Positions 15,581 to 34,309 of a DNA stretch of 40,749 bases are shown here, one piece after another. A program made the translations under genes and the position numbers. The stretch lies in IMG/VR virus record IMGVR_UViG_3300009184_000086, positions 1 through 40,749 of that record, one strand, 5' to 3'. This DNA is from a virus. Position 1 is the first letter of the stretch. Every line of letters begins with the position of its first letter. The notes below the pieces were generated by a model that ran no database searches, was not told the origin of the DNA, and saw only the letters and a program-made list of their open reading frames with translations.

Positions 15581-15898
15581 CTACTCGAATTGCGCCATCC
15601 AATCTGCGGTTGGCGCGATTTTTGTTTTAGTAGATTTTGCTTTGTAGCCGCCTTCATCGTGCAGGTATCGAATGGCGCGATCATGCTTTACTCCGAGCTT
15701 TTCAGCCAGGGTAATACGAGTCTCGTGTTCGTCGACACGCTCTACGATAGCGCTGTCATTCTGACGTAGGTTATTGACTTTGGTGTCGACGTCGCCGTGA
15801 CGCCAGCCCAAATAGCCACCCAGAAGGGCGCCAGCGGGGCCGAGAAGGGCTAGACCGGCTAAAGCGCCGCCGCCCGTGATGAGTGTAGTAGTTTCCAT
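15581..15898 (-). CDS. Glycine-rich membrane protein, possible holin
   Basis: 105 aa. Residues about 5-32 (LITGGGALAGLALLGPAGAL plus LGGYLGW) are glycine/alanine/leucine-rich, like a membrane-inserting or glycine-zipper segment. Behind it is a charged region with a coiled-coil-like stretch (NNLRQNDSAIVERVDEHETR). It lies apart from the late operon, past its terminator, in the minus direction. It could be a second holin, a membrane toxin or a tail-associated protein. Confidence 0.5.
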   Translation of the reverse strand: METTTLITGGGALAGLALLGPAGALLGGYLGWRHGDVDTKVNNLRQNDSAIVERVDEHETRITLAEKLGVKHDRAIRYLHDEGGYKAKSTKTKIAPTADWMAQFE

Positions 15899-16001
15899 TG
15901 TTTTGCGTTTTGTGCCGGCTTAATTGCCAACACCTAATTAAACGGCGCCTTCAGATATAAATTAAGCAAGTTAGAGCTATTAACAATTTCTTTACAACTG
16001 C

Positions 16002-16065
16002 GGGGTGAGAAGGGATTGAACCCCCAACTATGGGCTTTGGAGACTGCCTATTGAGCTACCACCCC
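16002..16065 (-). tRNA. tRNA-Trp(CCA)-like gene lacking 8 nt
   Basis: On the minus strand the acceptor arms GGGGTGG and TCACCCC pair over 7 bp. T8, A9, GCTC, the D-loop AATAGGCA, an anticodon loop CTCCAAA (anticodon CCA at 16040-16038), GCCCA, and a T-arm GGGGG-TTCAATC-CCTTC are all in order, followed by G73. The 3' side of the D-stem and most of the 5' side of the anticodon stem are missing, so the gene is 64 nt instead of about 72. The gap looks like one clean 8-base deletion. No CCA is encoded. It may be a pseudo-tRNA, an attachment-site remnant or a real but unusual tRNA. Confidence 0.75.
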
Positions 16066-16107
16066 AAAATGAAAAGCCCTCGCCAACGTTTTAAGTCGGT
16101 GAGGGCT
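16066..16107 (-). terminator. Intrinsic terminator of the leftward late operon
   Basis: On the minus strand the stem AGCCCTC-ACC / GGC-GAGGGCT (7 bp, one mismatch, then further pairs) is followed by TTTTCATTTT (16075-16066). No T-run lies on the plus strand side, so it acts leftward. It lies 109 bases past the end of the last lysis gene and directly before the tRNA-like gene. It would end both the late operon and any transcript from the promoter at 16185-16212. Confidence 0.75.
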
Positions 16108-16178
16108 CAATGCAAGAAGGCTTTGGAAACGCAAATAACCTTAGCCGAAAAGGAGACTTTCAGTTTCCCGTAGTCTCA
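16070..16178 (-). ncRNA. Candidate small RNA of about 110 nt
   Basis: The unit runs from the promoter at 16185-16212 (predicted start about 16178) to the terminator at 16066-16107. At the 5' end GAGACT (16177-16172) pairs with AGTCTC (16158-16153), then comes a weakly structured middle with a CCTTTTCGG stretch, then the terminator stem. 5' hairpin, open middle and intrinsic terminator are typical of bacterial regulatory small RNAs. No open reading frame of sense lies in it. No known family is recognised. Confidence 0.6.
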
Positions 16179-16184
16179 AACGCA

Positions 16185-16212
16185 ATCATACTATAACACG
16201 CAAAACTGTCAA
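16185..16212 (-). promoter_or_regulatory. Strong sigma-70-type promoter, leftward
   Basis: Minus strand: perfect -35 TTGACA (16212-16207), a 16-bp spacer, and -10 TATGAT (16190-16185, five of six consensus bases). It begins three bases after the stop of the lipoprotein gene and faces away from it. Nothing but the candidate small RNA lies between it and the terminator at 16066-16107. Confidence 0.7.
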
Positions 16213-16215
16213 GCG

Positions 16216-16482
16216 TTATTTTTGCAACTCGTCTTCGTACCCTACAATCGTCTTGAGTATTTTTCGCCAATCTTCTTTATATTTGGCTAATACTTCCGCA
16301 TTAGAGGTAGTGTCAATAAAAAGCGGCATTTTTAGCACTTCAGCCGAAAAATCCCGCTCTATAGCGCCCGTAAAGGCGCTTTTAGATGGAGGGGGTGGGG
16401 TAATGCACCCGCTAAGCGGCAGGAGGACTAGGAGGCCCGTCCAGAGCATCGTCAATGCGCTTAAGCTTTTTGGCTTTGTCAT
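16216..16482 (-). CDS. Outer-membrane lipoprotein, possible o-spanin (Rz1-like)
   Basis: 88 aa. Positively charged start (KPKS), hydrophobic h-region (about 10-22), lipobox LSGC with the lipidated C26, then ITPPPPSK, the proline-rich stretch typical of Rz1-type outer-membrane spanins. The rest is a charged helix. It overlaps the 54-aa gene at 16412-16576 in another frame, an arrangement reminiscent of Rz/Rz1. It is the last gene of the late operon, three genes past the holin. Confidence 0.7.
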   Translation of the reverse strand: MTKPKSLSALTMLWTGLLVLLPLSGCITPPPPSKSAFTGAIERDFSAEVLKMPLFIDTTSNAEVLAKYKEDWRKILKTIVGYEDELQK

Positions 16483-16576
16483 CAGCTATTTTCTTCTTTT
16501 TATTCTCGTGTAGCGTGGCCAAAAGCTGTTGCCAAACTGAATTCAGCAAAAATATGAGTTCTTTTAGCCACGCCAT
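16412..16576 (-). CDS. Small amphipathic protein overlapping the lipoprotein gene
   Basis: 54 aa. The N-terminus (AWLKELIFLLNSVWQQLLATL) is hydrophobic to amphipathic, followed by a strongly basic run with KKKK and a proline-rich end. It overlaps the lipoprotein gene by 71 bases in a different frame. The overlap and place after the holin suggest a spanin partner, but it is short for an Rz-type inner-membrane spanin. The ribosome site is weak. Not long enough for a firm call. Confidence 0.5.
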   Translation of the reverse strand: MAWLKELIFLLNSVWQQLLATLHENKKKKIADDKAKKLKRIDDALDGPPSPPAA

Positions 16577-16578
16577 AG

Positions 16579-16815
16579 TTATTTCAGGACCACTAGTTTT
16601 TTAGTAGCAACGATGCGTCCCCAGATAGCCACGGCGCTTCCGCCGAAAGTCATCAGGGATTCGATAAGCAGACTACTGGCTTCAGAAAAACCAGGCAGCA
16701 CTTTAATTCCAAATAGGGCAAGTACGCTCGGGATGGCAGCGACAACAACACCCAGGATGGTTTTAGAAGTGAAAACGGATTTCACTTCGGGTTGAGTAGA
16801 GGTAGTATCGGTCAT
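16579..16815 (-). CDS. Holin
   Basis: 78 aa. Two membrane helices, about 20-37 (ILGVVVAAIPSVLALFGI) and 47-66 (SSLLIESLMTFGGSAVAIWG), a short loop between, and a basic C-terminal tail (RIVATKKL). This matches the small two-helix phage holins with a GRIxATKK-type end. It would form lesions in the inner membrane to release the lysis enzyme. It sits amid the spanin-like genes. Confidence 0.8.
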   Translation of the reverse strand: MTDTTSTQPEVKSVFTSKTILGVVVAAIPSVLALFGIKVLPGFSEASSLLIESLMTFGGSAVAIWGRIVATKKLVVLK

Positions 16816-16823
16816 AGGAAAAA

Positions 16824-17138
16824 TTAGCGAGCGTAGTAAATTGTAGGCGGCTCAACGTAGCTGGTGTTTCGTGAGTCTCTTAAAATCATTTGAAGCATCG
16901 TCCTGTCTTCGGCAAGGTGTGTCTTTATGGTAGACACACTTTCGCGCATGTCCCCGATGTCTTTCCGGATGCCAGTTATTGTAGACTCGAAGATCACATC
17001 TCTTTGCTCGAGGCGCGTCTGTATTGAATGTATTTGATGATACACCGCGCCACCGGCAAACGCAGTAGCAACTATGGCGGTTAGAATTGCCCAGTTTTCG
17101 AGTAAAAAGGCATGGAAGTTTTTAATAGAAGAGCTCAT
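16824..17138 (-). CDS. Single-pass membrane protein with coiled coil, possible i-spanin
   Basis: 104 aa from the ATG at 17138, which follows the stop of the fibre gene by two bases. Membrane helix at about 16-34 (WAILTAIVATAFAGGAV), then a charged coiled coil (about 36-88). The layout, N-terminal anchor and helical soluble part, suits an inner-membrane spanin facing the lipoprotein encoded at 16216-16482, or a lysis regulator. A longer start at 17285 would lie in the upstream gene and is not credible. Confidence 0.6.
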   Translation of the reverse strand: MSSSIKNFHAFLLENWAILTAIVATAFAGGAVYHQIHSIQTRLEQRDVIFESTITGIRKDIGDMRESVSTIKTHLAEDRTMLQMILRDSRNTSYVEPPTIYYAR

Positions 17139-17140
17139 GG

Positions 17141-18025
17141 CTATCCAAGAAAAGATGCGTAAGCAACGCTGCGGACTCCGTTGACGCCATCGTCGCCGTA
17201 AAAAGATGTCGCAGCAGAAGAAAGCTCCAGAGGATAGAGAGTCTTGAAACCTCCATTCCAGGAGCGCAAATATTTCGCATGGCATGTTTGAAAGCCATTG
17301 CCCGGCGAAGAGCCGTTTGAGTCGCCTTGGCGCAGAACAGTACCGAAACCATCCGTGTTATTATTTAGACTTGAGAGCGCGCTAATAGGGGTGCGTGCCA
17401 CACAAGCACAATCCACATACATGTGGCCGTTAACTAAAGTTTCTCCCAGCGGGTCCACTACAAACTCAAGGCGCCACGCGTTTCTAACAGGGCGCCATGT
17501 GGCAGTACCGTAAGACCAGGTGTCAGTGGTGTCGTTTTGTTCGAGAACTAATTGGCGCTGATTATAGCGATTCCAGATACCAAGGTGGGGGTGGCCTACC
17601 GTAGCGCTGTCTGCACGAGGGCGCCACATGATGGTGTTGGCTGAAGTCCAGCCGTAAACGGTTCCTACGTGACGGCGAGTGGGATCACCGCTTTTTACCG
17701 GTATGCCGTCCACGCGCACCACAGTCGTGCCTGTCTCGACAGACAGTGTGGGGGTGCTGCCTACAGCCCTAACGTAGGCTTCGCCCTGCGTGTTGGCAGC
17801 CAAAGTAAAAGCCAATGAAATCCCACTTGCGCCAATGTCGTAGGCGTCATAGCGAGTGCCGTTAAACAAAGAGATGTACCGGTGTACTACAGGAATGTAA
17901 GTCAGCGTACTGGCGCTAACAGTTGAATTTAAAGACAGGGGTCCGGTGTTTAGGCTAAGCAGCCCGCCGACAACATCGGCAAACTGCGTATTGACCATTG
18001 GGCGATTTATTAGTGTCAGTGGCAT
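17141..18025 (-). CDS. Tail fibre or receptor-binding protein, likely
   Basis: 294 aa, rich in S, T, G and N with regular beta strands, no membrane segment. It follows the fibre gene and the small assembly-like gene, and its ATG overlaps the upstream stop as TAATG. An aromatic W-rich core (WTSANTIMWRP, WRPVRNAWRLEF) suggests a lectin-like beta sandwich, so it could contact host glycans. No specific family is recognised. Confidence 0.65.
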   Translation of the reverse strand: MPLTLINRPMVNTQFADVVGGLLSLNTGPLSLNSTVSASTLTYIPVVHRYISLFNGTRYDAYDIGASGISLAFTLAANTQGEAYVRAVGSTPTLSVETGTTVVRVDGIPVKSGDPTRRHVGTVYGWTSANTIMWRPRADSATVGHPHLGIWNRYNQRQLVLEQNDTTDTWSYGTATWRPVRNAWRLEFVVDPLGETLVNGHMYVDCACVARTPISALSSLNNNTDGFGTVLRQGDSNGSSPGNGFQTCHAKYLRSWNGGFKTLYPLELSSAATSFYGDDGVNGVRSVAYASFLG

Positions 18026-28237: not shown

Positions 28238-30500
28238 TTACGATTCTTGCCATAATAGCTTGCACAGTTAAAGGCAGAGGTTCGTAAGTACGCACAAATA
28301 CACGGCTGCTTCGTTCCTCCCCTGCATAAATTTCAATCTCTTTAGTCCCGGTATACAAATCGATCGGCACTCCATTGGGCTCTGTCGTCCGGAACTTAAT
28401 CTCAGAAAGTCTATCAGCATTCGGGCCAACCCAGCAAGTACGAGACTTTCTTAGTTTCAAAAGAACAGTTTTTACCTGGCGGTGTTTGTCCTGTATCGGC
28501 CCGGCTTGTGTGTTGTAATTCAAGTCAAGAGTCCAAAGATCACAGGTGTAGGGAAGCCCTACGGTTACAAACGCAGCCGGAGTATCTAGTACTATCTGCC
28601 CCGAGGTTACAACTTTACCGGTGACCTGGCTTCCATCAGCCAACACCGCTACAGTTTTACCTTCTAAATGACTTAGCCCCGTAAATGTCGTAGCGCATTT
28701 GCGCGCAGCTCCGCCCGAGACATAGGTGCCATACGCGGCGGTGCTTACATCCGCGGTGCCTGCTTTGTTTTTTAAAGCAAACGTGTTAGTGGTCGCCGCA
28801 TCCACGGTGTAGTAAAACTTATTTACCTGATCCATGCCAGCAACATCGGTAATGAGTACAATATCTCCGTTTGAGAAACCGTGGGCGGGGCAAGTCACCA
28901 CGCCGGGGTTGGCTTTTGTAATTCCTGTGATTGTTTTAGGTGTGTTGTACTGAAGCCCGCAGTCGACAAACCACGGTGAGTAGACGTCGTTAAACTCCCG
29001 GCGAGCCATTTGCTCCACAAAGCGTTTGGTAGTCCCGTTAATCGTCCGCTTTACGATAAACCAAACTTCACCCGACCCGGTCGCATTCGTTGCACAGGCT
29101 ACAGACTCAAATTGACCGTCGGTCACATGACGATGCCAACCGTTTATCTTGTGTTCTTTGTGGTAGGTCATGCCAAGTAAAACTCCGTCATCGCGGCAAC
29201 CCCACACAATCGACTCTTGGCCTTGCTGGTAGCCCCAGCTTGAAATGCCGTAGTCCTCAAGGAGATGTTGAGCAAAAATCGTGACGTCCTGGCTATCGTA
29301 CCCGTTTATGTCTAGCGAGTAGGTAAGGTCTCTGACTTTCTTGCGAGATGCCTCTAAAAATAAAATAGTATTTCCGATCACCAAAGGGGAAAGATTATCC
29401 ACGCCCCACTGGCTTTGGCGCTTGATGTTAGTGCTTGCGGGAGTGATGGTGTCCGAGTTAACCCCGGGGGAAACGCGCCATTCGCCACCGGCGGTACCTA
29501 TAACTAGATCAGTTAAAGATACAAGCCAGCGGATTTCATTTACCTGCTGGGAGTTTAATGTTCTAGTGATAGCGTCGTCATCTCTCAGAGGTGCAGAAAT
29601 GTTAAAATTATTAAAAACCCCAATAACCGAAGTAAAAAAGCTTTGTGGATTATTGTTAGTGCGCGCCTCTACCAAACGCTGATCGTGGAAGACTGCTACG
29701 CCGGGATAGTCGCTTGCTGCATTAAATAGCGTACGAGCCACGGGCACACCTTTATTGGCGTCAGGAGTCAAGTTTGAGGGTACTGTAAATACGTTGGTGT
29801 TGGCTCTGCCTATCCAGCCATACGAACCGTTTGTGGCTTGATTAAGCGTCTCATAGACGTTATAGTAAGAAGCGCCGGCTACGGCCGTCCAAGTAAGGGT
29901 ATCGGCCCAGCCAAAAGCTGCAGACTGAGTAGAAGGAGGAGTCTCTTCGCCGATTGCAGATACGGCAGTTACTACATAGTATCTACCCGTAGCTGATCCA
30001 GAAGAACGAGTGATCGTGCCAGGGGAGGCAATCGATGCGGCCGTCGCAGGAGCTGTATACGTCCAAGAGGTGTGGCTTGTGCGGGTTAGCTCAGCTCTTG
30101 GATACGAGGGGTGGCGAATGTATAGCCGGTCGGCGCTTTGCTCAAATTTTAGATTTGCCAGGTCGGCTTCAACGTAGGGCGTAACAACTTCAACCGGAGT
30201 GCCAGGAGGACTTTCAATTCTCCCGCCATCTTTATAAAATCTGATATACAGGTCGCCGAACTCTAAAAAATACAACTGCGCGGTCGAGAACTGAAATCTA
30301 ACTATAATGCTTTTTTTATTAGAAGATTTTGTTTCGTTTACTAACTTTGTGCCGGGACGGTTAGACGCACCTCCGTGGATGTGCGGGTAGAAATTGATCA
30401 TTTCCGCCACCGATTGATCATAAGCATTCAGGTCGGTACGCGCATCGAGAGTATCAGCCAGCTCCCCTCCTGTGAATGAAGATTGAATTACGGTTGTCAT
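28224..30500 (-). CDS. Tail tubular protein B (gp12-like nozzle)
   Basis: 758 aa. It begins with the characteristic SSFTGGELADTLDARTDLNAY ordering of podovirus nozzle proteins (about 7-27), continues to PHIHGGASNRPGTKLV, and is beta-rich throughout. These hexamers form the end of the short tail. The ATG overlaps the tail tube A stop as ATGA, the conserved order of T7-like tail genes. Confidence 0.9.
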   Translation of the reverse strand: MTTVIQSSFTGGELADTLDARTDLNAYDQSVAEMINFYPHIHGGASNRPGTKLVNETKSSNKKSIIVRFQFSTAQLYFLEFGDLYIRFYKDGGRIESPPGTPVEVVTPYVEADLANLKFEQSADRLYIRHPSYPRAELTRTSHTSWTYTAPATAASIASPGTITRSSGSATGRYYVVTAVSAIGEETPPSTQSAAFGWADTLTWTAVAGASYYNVYETLNQATNGSYGWIGRANTNVFTVPSNLTPDANKGVPVARTLFNAASDYPGVAVFHDQRLVEARTNNNPQSFFTSVIGVFNNFNISAPLRDDDAITRTLNSQQVNEIRWLVSLTDLVIGTAGGEWRVSPGVNSDTITPASTNIKRQSQWGVDNLSPLVIGNTILFLEASRKKVRDLTYSLDINGYDSQDVTIFAQHLLEDYGISSWGYQQGQESIVWGCRDDGVLLGMTYHKEHKINGWHRHVTDGQFESVACATNATGSGEVWFIVKRTINGTTKRFVEQMARREFNDVYSPWFVDCGLQYNTPKTITGITKANPGVVTCPAHGFSNGDIVLITDVAGMDQVNKFYYTVDAATTNTFALKNKAGTADVSTAAYGTYVSGGAARKCATTFTGLSHLEGKTVAVLADGSQVTGKVVTSGQIVLDTPAAFVTVGLPYTCDLWTLDLNYNTQAGPIQDKHRQVKTVLLKLRKSRTCWVGPNADRLSEIKFRTTEPNGVPIDLYTGTKEIEIYAGEERSSRVFVRTYEPLPLTVQAIMARIVNAEK

Positions 30501-31235: not shown

Positions 31236-31658
31236 TTAGACGGGCTGGTTACCAGCTACAGGCTGCCAAGCTTGGCGGTCCATAACAAAACCCGAGCGAA
31301 TTGCACCTGCAGTGTAGGTTCCGGTAATTGCGTAACTAAAACGCAAGAAACGGAGCGTACCAGCGGGAACAACAGGCAGGTAAAGCTGAGCACCAAGGGT
31401 CAGAGCGGCAGTAGCAAAGGTCACCGTCCACAGCGCTACCGGTGAGGTAAACGCGGCGTCAGTGGCCGTTTGCAGGGTAATCGCAACCGAGGTACCGCCC
31501 GCAAAAGCGGTGGTAACAGCCAGGAAGCAATTAATGTCCATACCAATACCTGCATCTTCAGCAGCGCCGGTATCATAGATATCGGTGCTTACGATGGTGC
31601 CGGTGGTAAGGGCCTGCGGGTTAACTCCTGTTAAGAGGGTTTGACGGTCAAGAAACAT
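31236..31658 (-). CDS. Capsid cement protein (Bbp16-like)
   Basis: 140 aa. Beta-rich, with the pattern ASTxIYDTGAAEDAGIG, then LQTATDAAFTSP, LYLPVVPAGTLRFLRFSYAI and TAGAIRSGFV as in the Bbp16 family of head decoration proteins from BPP-1-type phages. It is downstream of the capsid gene. Small trimeric cement proteins of this family stabilise the mature head. Confidence 0.82.
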   Translation of the reverse strand: MFLDRQTLLTGVNPQALTTGTIVSTDIYDTGAAEDAGIGMDINCFLAVTTAFAGGTSVAITLQTATDAAFTSPVALWTVTFATAALTLGAQLYLPVVPAGTLRFLRFSYAITGTYTAGAIRSGFVMDRQAWQPVAGNQPV

Positions 31659-31686
31659 AGTATTTTATAGTCTTTCTTGTTTAGGG

Positions 31687-32682
31687 TTAGCTGATAGTGG
31701 CTTCGTTGATGCGCAAGGCGTCCGAGCGACGAACAGGAATTTCGTCAAACGAGAGAACCTTTTTGCCAGCAACCATGTCCATTGTCAGAGTTGAAGCGGC
31801 CACCTTGTTCATGATTTGGCGGCGCAGGAAAGAACGCAGAATACCAGGTACGTAGAATACGGGACGACCCATGCTCAGAGAAGGAACCTTCTCAATAGCT
31901 TGAGTCATCACGTCAATTAGGTCAGCACCCGAAGCAGCGTTCTTAGTCAGCGCAGGTACGTCAATGTTGGCTATACGCACAACATAGCGCCAGTCACGCA
32001 AGGACAAACCGACATTCCACTTATAGTGGGTGCGGTATCCCTGGAAACGGCCACCAGCCGAGTCAATGATTGTCTGCTCGCCGAGGTCCTGCGACTTCAG
32101 TCCGCCTACGCTACCCTTAGGATAGATACCATGGACAGTGTTGGGTCCCCAGACAACCAGCCAAGCCGAACAGTTGTTCGATCCCGAGCCGCCGCCGAGG
32201 ATGATGTTGTTACCGTTATCGGCGCCCGACTTCGTGGAATAGCGAGGAGCCAATCCCAGGAACTTTTCAGGGTCAATACCAGTGTTACCGTAAAAAAGAA
32301 CGTTGGCATACTCTTGGTTCATCGCCTCAAGGAACGCGGCGTCTTCCGACAAGCGGAACTCAGCTACGTTACCATTTAGTTCTGCCAAGTCTTTGTCCAC
32401 TTCGGCATAAGCTTCTAGCATGCCGCAGGTGTCGTCAACTTGAACGGTGGTGGATTTAGACGGCTGTACGCCGTAGTTTAGCAAGCGCCACGCTACCGTG
32501 GGGAGACCGGAGCGAACCGTGGTGCGATGACCAGTGGGAAGATTTCCTTCCACAAACAGCTGGTCGGCCAACACCTCATTTGTTCTATTGAGGATGTCGA
32601 CTATTTTAGCGATTTTGCCATCGGGCTCCATACGACGCACTGCGTCTTCAAGAGTGAGGGCGGTTGTACCTAGTGTTGCCAT
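31687..32682 (-). CDS. Major capsid protein
   Basis: 331 aa. It follows the BPP-1 type HK97-fold capsid proteins: ATLGTTALTLEDAVRRMEPDG at the start, LADQLFVEGNLPTGHRTTVR, a VQVDDTCGMLEAYAEVDKDL spine helix, and CSAWLVVWGPNTVHGIYPKG in the A domain. It sits between scaffold and cement genes, as expected. It is one of the best conserved products in the window. Confidence 0.92.
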   Translation of the reverse strand: MATLGTTALTLEDAVRRMEPDGKIAKIVDILNRTNEVLADQLFVEGNLPTGHRTTVRSGLPTVAWRLLNYGVQPSKSTTVQVDDTCGMLEAYAEVDKDLAELNGNVAEFRLSEDAAFLEAMNQEYANVLFYGNTGIDPEKFLGLAPRYSTKSGADNGNNIILGGGSGSNNCSAWLVVWGPNTVHGIYPKGSVGGLKSQDLGEQTIIDSAGGRFQGYRTHYKWNVGLSLRDWRYVVRIANIDVPALTKNAASGADLIDVMTQAIEKVPSLSMGRPVFYVPGILRSFLRRQIMNKVAASTLTMDMVAGKKVLSFDEIPVRRSDALRINEATIS

Positions 32683-33730: not shown

Positions 33731-34309
33731 TTAAATCATTTCTCTGACATCTACCCACGTGCTATCTATCCACATCTTTGCCCATTCACCGTTTTTAGGG
33801 TTTTTGCCGGGGAGCCTAAGGGTAGTCGAGCTATAAAAAGGCCCAACGTTGGCTCGCTGAATAACGCCGGGGCGCACAGAAAAGTTGTAGCCTTCGTTCA
33901 GTCCCGTAACGTAAGCAAACGCATCATCTTCAGTTTTTGGCGTTTCAAAAATAATCCACAGGTGAAAACTTCCGTATGAGGTAGATTTTTCTACAAAAGC
34001 CTCGTGGCCGGCCGATGCCGCCAAAGATAAAACCAAAGTTTCGTTTAGCCCCAAAAGCGCGGTGTCGTTAACTCTGCCATCGATGTCAAAGCCGACCCAA
34101 CGGCAGAATCCGGCGCCATTGATAGCAGTAACGGCCAACGTCTCTGCGCCGTTGCAGTGCGCGTCGATTATATCTTCGCTATACTCCTCGGGATAATAAT
34201 GCTTAATCGGAGAAGAAGCGCCGCGCCAAGGCGCTGCTTTTCGGCGCATCAGCGTATCGCGGAAACCAATCGGGCATATCTTCTCAGAAATAAAATCTTT
34301 TAAGGTCAT
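33731..34309 (-). CDS. AEP primase-like (TOTE-type) protein in head module
   Basis: 192 aa. The order of motifs is that of archaeo-eukaryotic primase (AEP) domains of the TOTE type: GFDID with D75 and D77, then STSYGSFHLW with S111 and H116, and LRLPGKN (164-170) with R165. This would be the catalytic core for making primers, though the domain is short and the C-terminus is truncated compared with classic primases. It lies amid head genes, coupled by ATGA to the collar-domain gene. It differs from the AEP domain at 1172-3160. Confidence 0.7.
   Translation of the reverse strand: MTLKDFISEKICPIGFRDTLMRRKAAPWRGASSPIKHYYPEEYSEDIIDAHCNGAETLAVTAINGAGFCRWVGFDIDGRVNDTALLGLNETLVLSLAASAGHEAFVEKSTSYGSFHLWIIFETPKTEDDAFAYVTGLNEGYNFSVRPGVIQRANVGPFYSSTTLRLPGKNPKNGEWAKMWIDSTWVDVREMI

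Follow-up and report, generated by a model that had tools for sequence, protein, structure and literature searches.

The phage record IMGVR_UViG_3300009184_000086 carries a tRNA-Trp(CCA)-like element of 65 bases on its minus strand, from which eight internal bases are missing. With a probability of roughly 0.8, judged by sequence comparison, this element is the pseudogene of an acquired tRNA-Trp(CCA) gene that was inactivated by one 8-base deletion. The term pseudogene is used here for two properties found together, homology to an intact tRNA along the whole length and a lesion that prevents folding. The window analyzed is the whole virus record (40,749 bases), which is classed as linear, lacks end repeats, and has genes cut at both of its ends.

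Results

Structure of the tRNA-Trp-like element

Both tRNA ends are present in the element, the features of which are listed in Table 1. The 5' strand of the acceptor stem is followed by U8-A9, the 3' strand of the anticodon stem reads GCCCA, and the variable loop reads TAGTT. The marks of tRNA-Trp are kept, i.e., the anticodon CCA, an anticodon loop of seven bases that includes U33, and G73. The D-stem lacks its 3' strand and the anticodon stem nearly the whole of its 5' strand, and, according to our script and the alignments, a four-arm cloverleaf cannot form without these strands. Therefore, the element has no tRNA fold, does not display its anticodon, and does not serve in translation. The gap is its only clear defect. 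No pair is broken in the remaining part, a picture that a retained function would also give. The sequence-only reading had placed the element at 16002-16065; the locus was right, but the 3' end was not, as the discriminator G73 at 16001 had been left out.

Table 1. Positions of the tRNA-Trp-like element, its parts, and the adjoining putative small-RNA unit in the window
Feature	Position	Strand	Basis
tRNA-Trp(CCA)-like gene, 65 bases, with 8-base internal deletion	16001-16065	-	Rfam RF00005, 25.8 bits; blastn to annotated tRNA-Trp; pairwise alignments
Acceptor stem, 5' strand GGGGTGG	16059-16065	-	Script; 7/7 pairs with TCACCCC
D-stem 5' strand GCTC and D-loop AATAGGCA; D-stem 3' strand missing	16045-16056	-	Script; alignment
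Deletion junction, 8 bases absent, placement ± one base	16044-16045	-	Alignments to six IMG/VR tRNA-Trp genes and IME-SM1
Anticodon loop CTCCAAA, anticodon CCA	16036-16042	-	Script
T-arm GGGGG-TTCAATC-CCTTC	16009-16025	-	Script; T-stem 5/5 pairs, two of them G-U
Acceptor 3' strand and discriminator G73; CCA not encoded	16001-16008	-	Script
Strong terminator-like hairpin and T-tract closing the putative small-RNA unit, directly upstream of the element	16074-16108	-	Fold of 16072-16188
Sigma-70-like promoter TTGACA-16-TATGAT (11/12) of the putative small-RNA unit	16185-16212	-	Consensus scan

Homology to intact tRNA-Trp genes

The element was aligned with seven intact tRNA-Trp genes, six from IMG/VR and one from Stenotrophomonas phage IME-SM1. 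In all seven alignments, both halves of the element were colinear with the intact gene and were separated by the same central gap of exactly 8 bases, which bears out the earlier description of a tRNA-Trp(CCA) with an 8-base internal deletion. The best alignment was obtained with IME-SM1 (49/65 aligned bases, the 8-base gap apart). Four of the six IMG/VR alignments offset the divergent acceptor strands and placed the ends loosely (57 aligned bases). A search of IMG/VR with the T-arm pattern returned six records, and every match (6/6) was an intact tRNA-Trp gene inside a phage tRNA array. The acceptor stem differs from those of the nearest genes, yet it is fully paired (7/7), as is the T-stem (5/5). 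This indicates that the gene was under tRNA constraint before the deletion.

The Rfam tRNA model (RF00005) scored the element at 25.8 bits, i.e., below its gathering score of 29, with E-values of 7.1e-5 over the 40.7-kb record and 0.0024 in a sensitive scan of 331 bases. Consequently, the element was not called by Rfam at the gathering threshold, and neither was it called by ARAGORN. Using blastn, 85 phage records were matched, and among the 40 matches listed, 36 had an annotated tRNA-Trp at the matching position, although the E-values were weak (best 0.01). The E-value over the record, together with the matches to annotated tRNA-Trp genes, rules out a chance likeness. The predicted fold of the element (-20.5 kcal/mol; z -1.28) was hardly better than those of shuffled sequences, 22 of 200 of which were equally good, and there is no sign in this comparison of a new structure in the remnant. 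A plus-strand likeness to a CRISPR repeat (RF01346, 12.3 bits, E 3.9; cut-off 38) was dismissed as a side effect of the T-arm sequence.

Searches for an intact tRNA-Trp gene with the acceptor strand GGGGTGG gave no match in IMG/VR or, with two patterns, in a collection of genomes from 84,980 species; these were strict exact patterns, which near misses would escape. The 5' half of the element, used alone as a pattern, had no match in IMG/VR either. The pattern GCCCATARTTGNGGGTTC was found at three viral places, none of which was recognized as a tRNA by ARAGORN or Rfam. The Arthrobacter alpinus plasmid NZ_CP013746.1 (L130:255-345) gave a 38-base match to the 3' portion of the element (86.8%; E 0.003). 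This plasmid stretch shares the ends GGGGTGG ... TCACCCC with the element. It was rejected as a tRNA or donor because neither ARAGORN nor Rfam recognized it, and no convincing relatives of it were found in the plasmid or phage collections. It is possibly another decayed tRNA.

The adjoining small-RNA unit

A putative small-RNA unit occupies 16072-16212 on the minus strand, and comprises a promoter-like site, a structured stretch of ~110 bases, and a terminator-like hairpin. The fold of 16072-16188 (-39.1 kcal/mol; z -3.44) was not equaled by any of 200 shuffles. The hairpin at 16108-16074 would be expected to act as a strong terminator, judging from this predicted fold; it was not among the hits of a simple consensus scan for terminators. 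No convincing match for the unit was found in Rfam or among phages (best E 0.1). The consensus promoter scan returned two promoter-like sites against 1.6 expected in the region scanned, and the one at 16212-16185 was the sole such site on the minus strand between 15500 and 16900.

The hairpin's T-tract leads directly into the element, which confirms the observation that the element adjoins the terminator of the small-RNA unit. The consensus scan found no promoter of its own for the element. With a hairpin and T-tract ending beside its first base, transcription of the element would need read-through, either at this site or from the late operon. The remnant (16033-16044) and the small-RNA unit (16119-16130) have GTYTCCAAAGCC in common on the minus strand, with 11/12 bases identical. 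Of 2000 shuffles, 9 scored equally well, but so did 21 of the 1340 other window segments tested, and a link between the small RNA and the tRNA based on this similarity was not relied on.

The phage and its relatives

The major capsid protein of the record has 66.5% identity to its counterpart in Bordetella phage BPP-1, and the terminase and virion genes match those of related environmental phages. Judged by these proteins, the record belongs to a phage related to BPP-1. The tRNA-like element lies at the far end of the late genes, beyond putative lysis genes, whose names rest only on their position and on a reading of their sequences. Five proteins of this region (15581-15898, 16216-16482, 16412-16576, 16579-16815, and 16824-17285) had no match in PHROGs. 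Elsewhere in the record, a minus-strand protein at 33731-34309 resembles the AEP-TOTE primase domain (PF22548, E 1.4e-7, above the cut-off). It sits amid virion genes, between the portal and the scaffold region.

The tRNA model was run over the whole length of 43 related records (6 + 37), and no tRNA-Trp was detected in any of them; many are fragments, which makes this a soft absence. A tRNA above the cut-off was present in two of the 43, namely a tRNA-Met in G001, the nearest relative by terminase, and a tRNA-Thr in G036. Two further relatives gave only weak, sub-threshold tRNA likeness (13.2 and 10.8 bits). When ARAGORN was applied to 60 of 80 capsid loci, one tRNA-Met was found (L070), and 20 other loci yielded no tRNAs. 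The intact tRNA-Met of G001 (L040:1498-1572) directly follows a putative holin gene, near lysis genes, as in the record.

As in our record, the tRNA-Met of G001 and the tRNA-Thr of G036 are each a single tRNA gene in a related BPP-1-like phage. However, they are intact and of other isotypes, and therefore do not represent the same acquisition as the element. The sequences compared indicate that single tRNA genes are gained and lost within the BPP-1-like group. The deletion itself was sought with an exact pattern spanning the junction, which occurred at 18 other places in IMG/VR, all of them (18/18) outside a tRNA context. Thus, among exact matches in IMG/VR, there was no second case of this 8-base deletion in a tRNA.

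Discussion

The sequence-only reading had proposed a decayed tRNA, among other options, and it is this option that is supported by the colinear homology to intact tRNA-Trp genes and by a fold-breaking gap of 8 bases. A BPP-1-like phage would have acquired a tRNA-Trp(CCA) gene at some time, probably from the pool that phages exchange, so that the origin of the element is probably phage-borne. One deletion of 8 bases would then have removed the D-stem 3' strand and nearly all of the anticodon-stem 5' strand. The remainder would still be tRNA-like owing to too little time having passed for further decay, and the deletion is accordingly likely to be recent and the element to have no present function. 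The clean deletion had earlier been taken as unlike random decay, but one small deletion is a commonplace way for inactivation to begin and is silent on retention. A phage tRNA-Trp put out of action by a small deletion accounts for everything seen.

It is unlikely that the tRNA-Trp of the phage is in fact intact and that the eight bases were lost in the record through an error of sequencing or assembly, or in a minority variant. Such a loss would agree with the gap being the only clear defect of the element, and the contig comes from IMG/VR and has no end repeats. However, short-read errors usually occur in homopolymers or repeats, and the gap lies outside homopolymers and obvious repeats. It is very unlikely that the element is a functional truncated tRNA, i.e., an acceptor/T-arm minihelix kept as a substrate or decoy for tRNA enzymes or against tRNA-targeting defences, with RNase P, the CCA-adding enzyme, and TrpRS as the candidate enzymes under this same joint reading. 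The acceptor stem, T-arm, and discriminator are the parts that these three enzymes read, and all of them, G73 included, are intact. In contrast, no conservation was seen, given that the exact IMG/VR matches to the junction all fell outside tRNAs, and the fold of the remnant is not unusual compared with shuffles. For a decoy RNA, which had also been suggested from the sequence, we found no positive evidence: the element has no promoter that we could find, and the sole promoter-like site nearby lies upstream of the strong terminator-like hairpin and is cut off by it. It is highly improbable that the phage keeps a pared-down tRNA-Trp minihelix with no usable anticodon arm, made by read-through from the small-RNA unit, to occupy host machinery that processes or senses tRNAs.

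The least probable explanation is that the element is an attP whose source was a host tRNA-Trp gene, as the sequence-only reading had also offered. tRNA genes are common integration targets, according to PMC9897764 and PMC10865867, and a tyrosine integrase (PF00589) is encoded by two of 11 relatives, G001 and G030. In G001, this integrase gene (28472-29851) is close to the terminase gene (31569-31790), and an integrase just past the right end of our record, where its genes are cut, is thus possible. The element itself is 21-23 kb from the terminase, the neighborhood in which G001 has its integrase, and an integrase beyond the right end would still be >20 kb away from it. Within the record, which is a fragment, PF00589 is absent, and PHROGs and Pfam revealed no integrase among the proteins scanned. 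Moreover, the attP cores in the portion of PMC10865867 that we consulted span one part of a tRNA, often the 3' half, whereas the element has both tRNA ends. The closest intact genes found are phage-borne, and a host gene with this acceptor type was not found with the two exact patterns in the genome collection. The presence of both tRNA halves and the lack of a detected integrase in this incomplete record therefore make an attachment site unlikely.

As a pseudogene, the element would be a further example of tRNA gain and loss in phages, observed shortly after the one deletion that inactivated it. It would gain in importance only if relatives sharing this deletion came to light, because these would suggest a tRNA-derived RNA that acts outside translation. 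A search of titles and abstracts surfaced no paper on internally deleted phage tRNA genes, which is not proof that none exists.

Two known systems can be compared with the element. The partial prokaryote tRNA genes that arise from mobile-element integration, as described in PMC9897764, are non-canonical and score below intact genes, as does the element. However, those partial tRNAs are fragments beside integrated elements, whereas the element retains both ends and has suffered an internal loss. The tRNA-Trp(CCA) of the large phage IME-SM1 (KR560069.1, 2143-2215) shares the isotype with the element and is nearly alike in the D-loop, anticodon loop, and T-arm. It differs in being intact, in its acceptor sequence, and in belonging to a tRNA array, whereas the copy in our record lacks 8 bases and is solitary.
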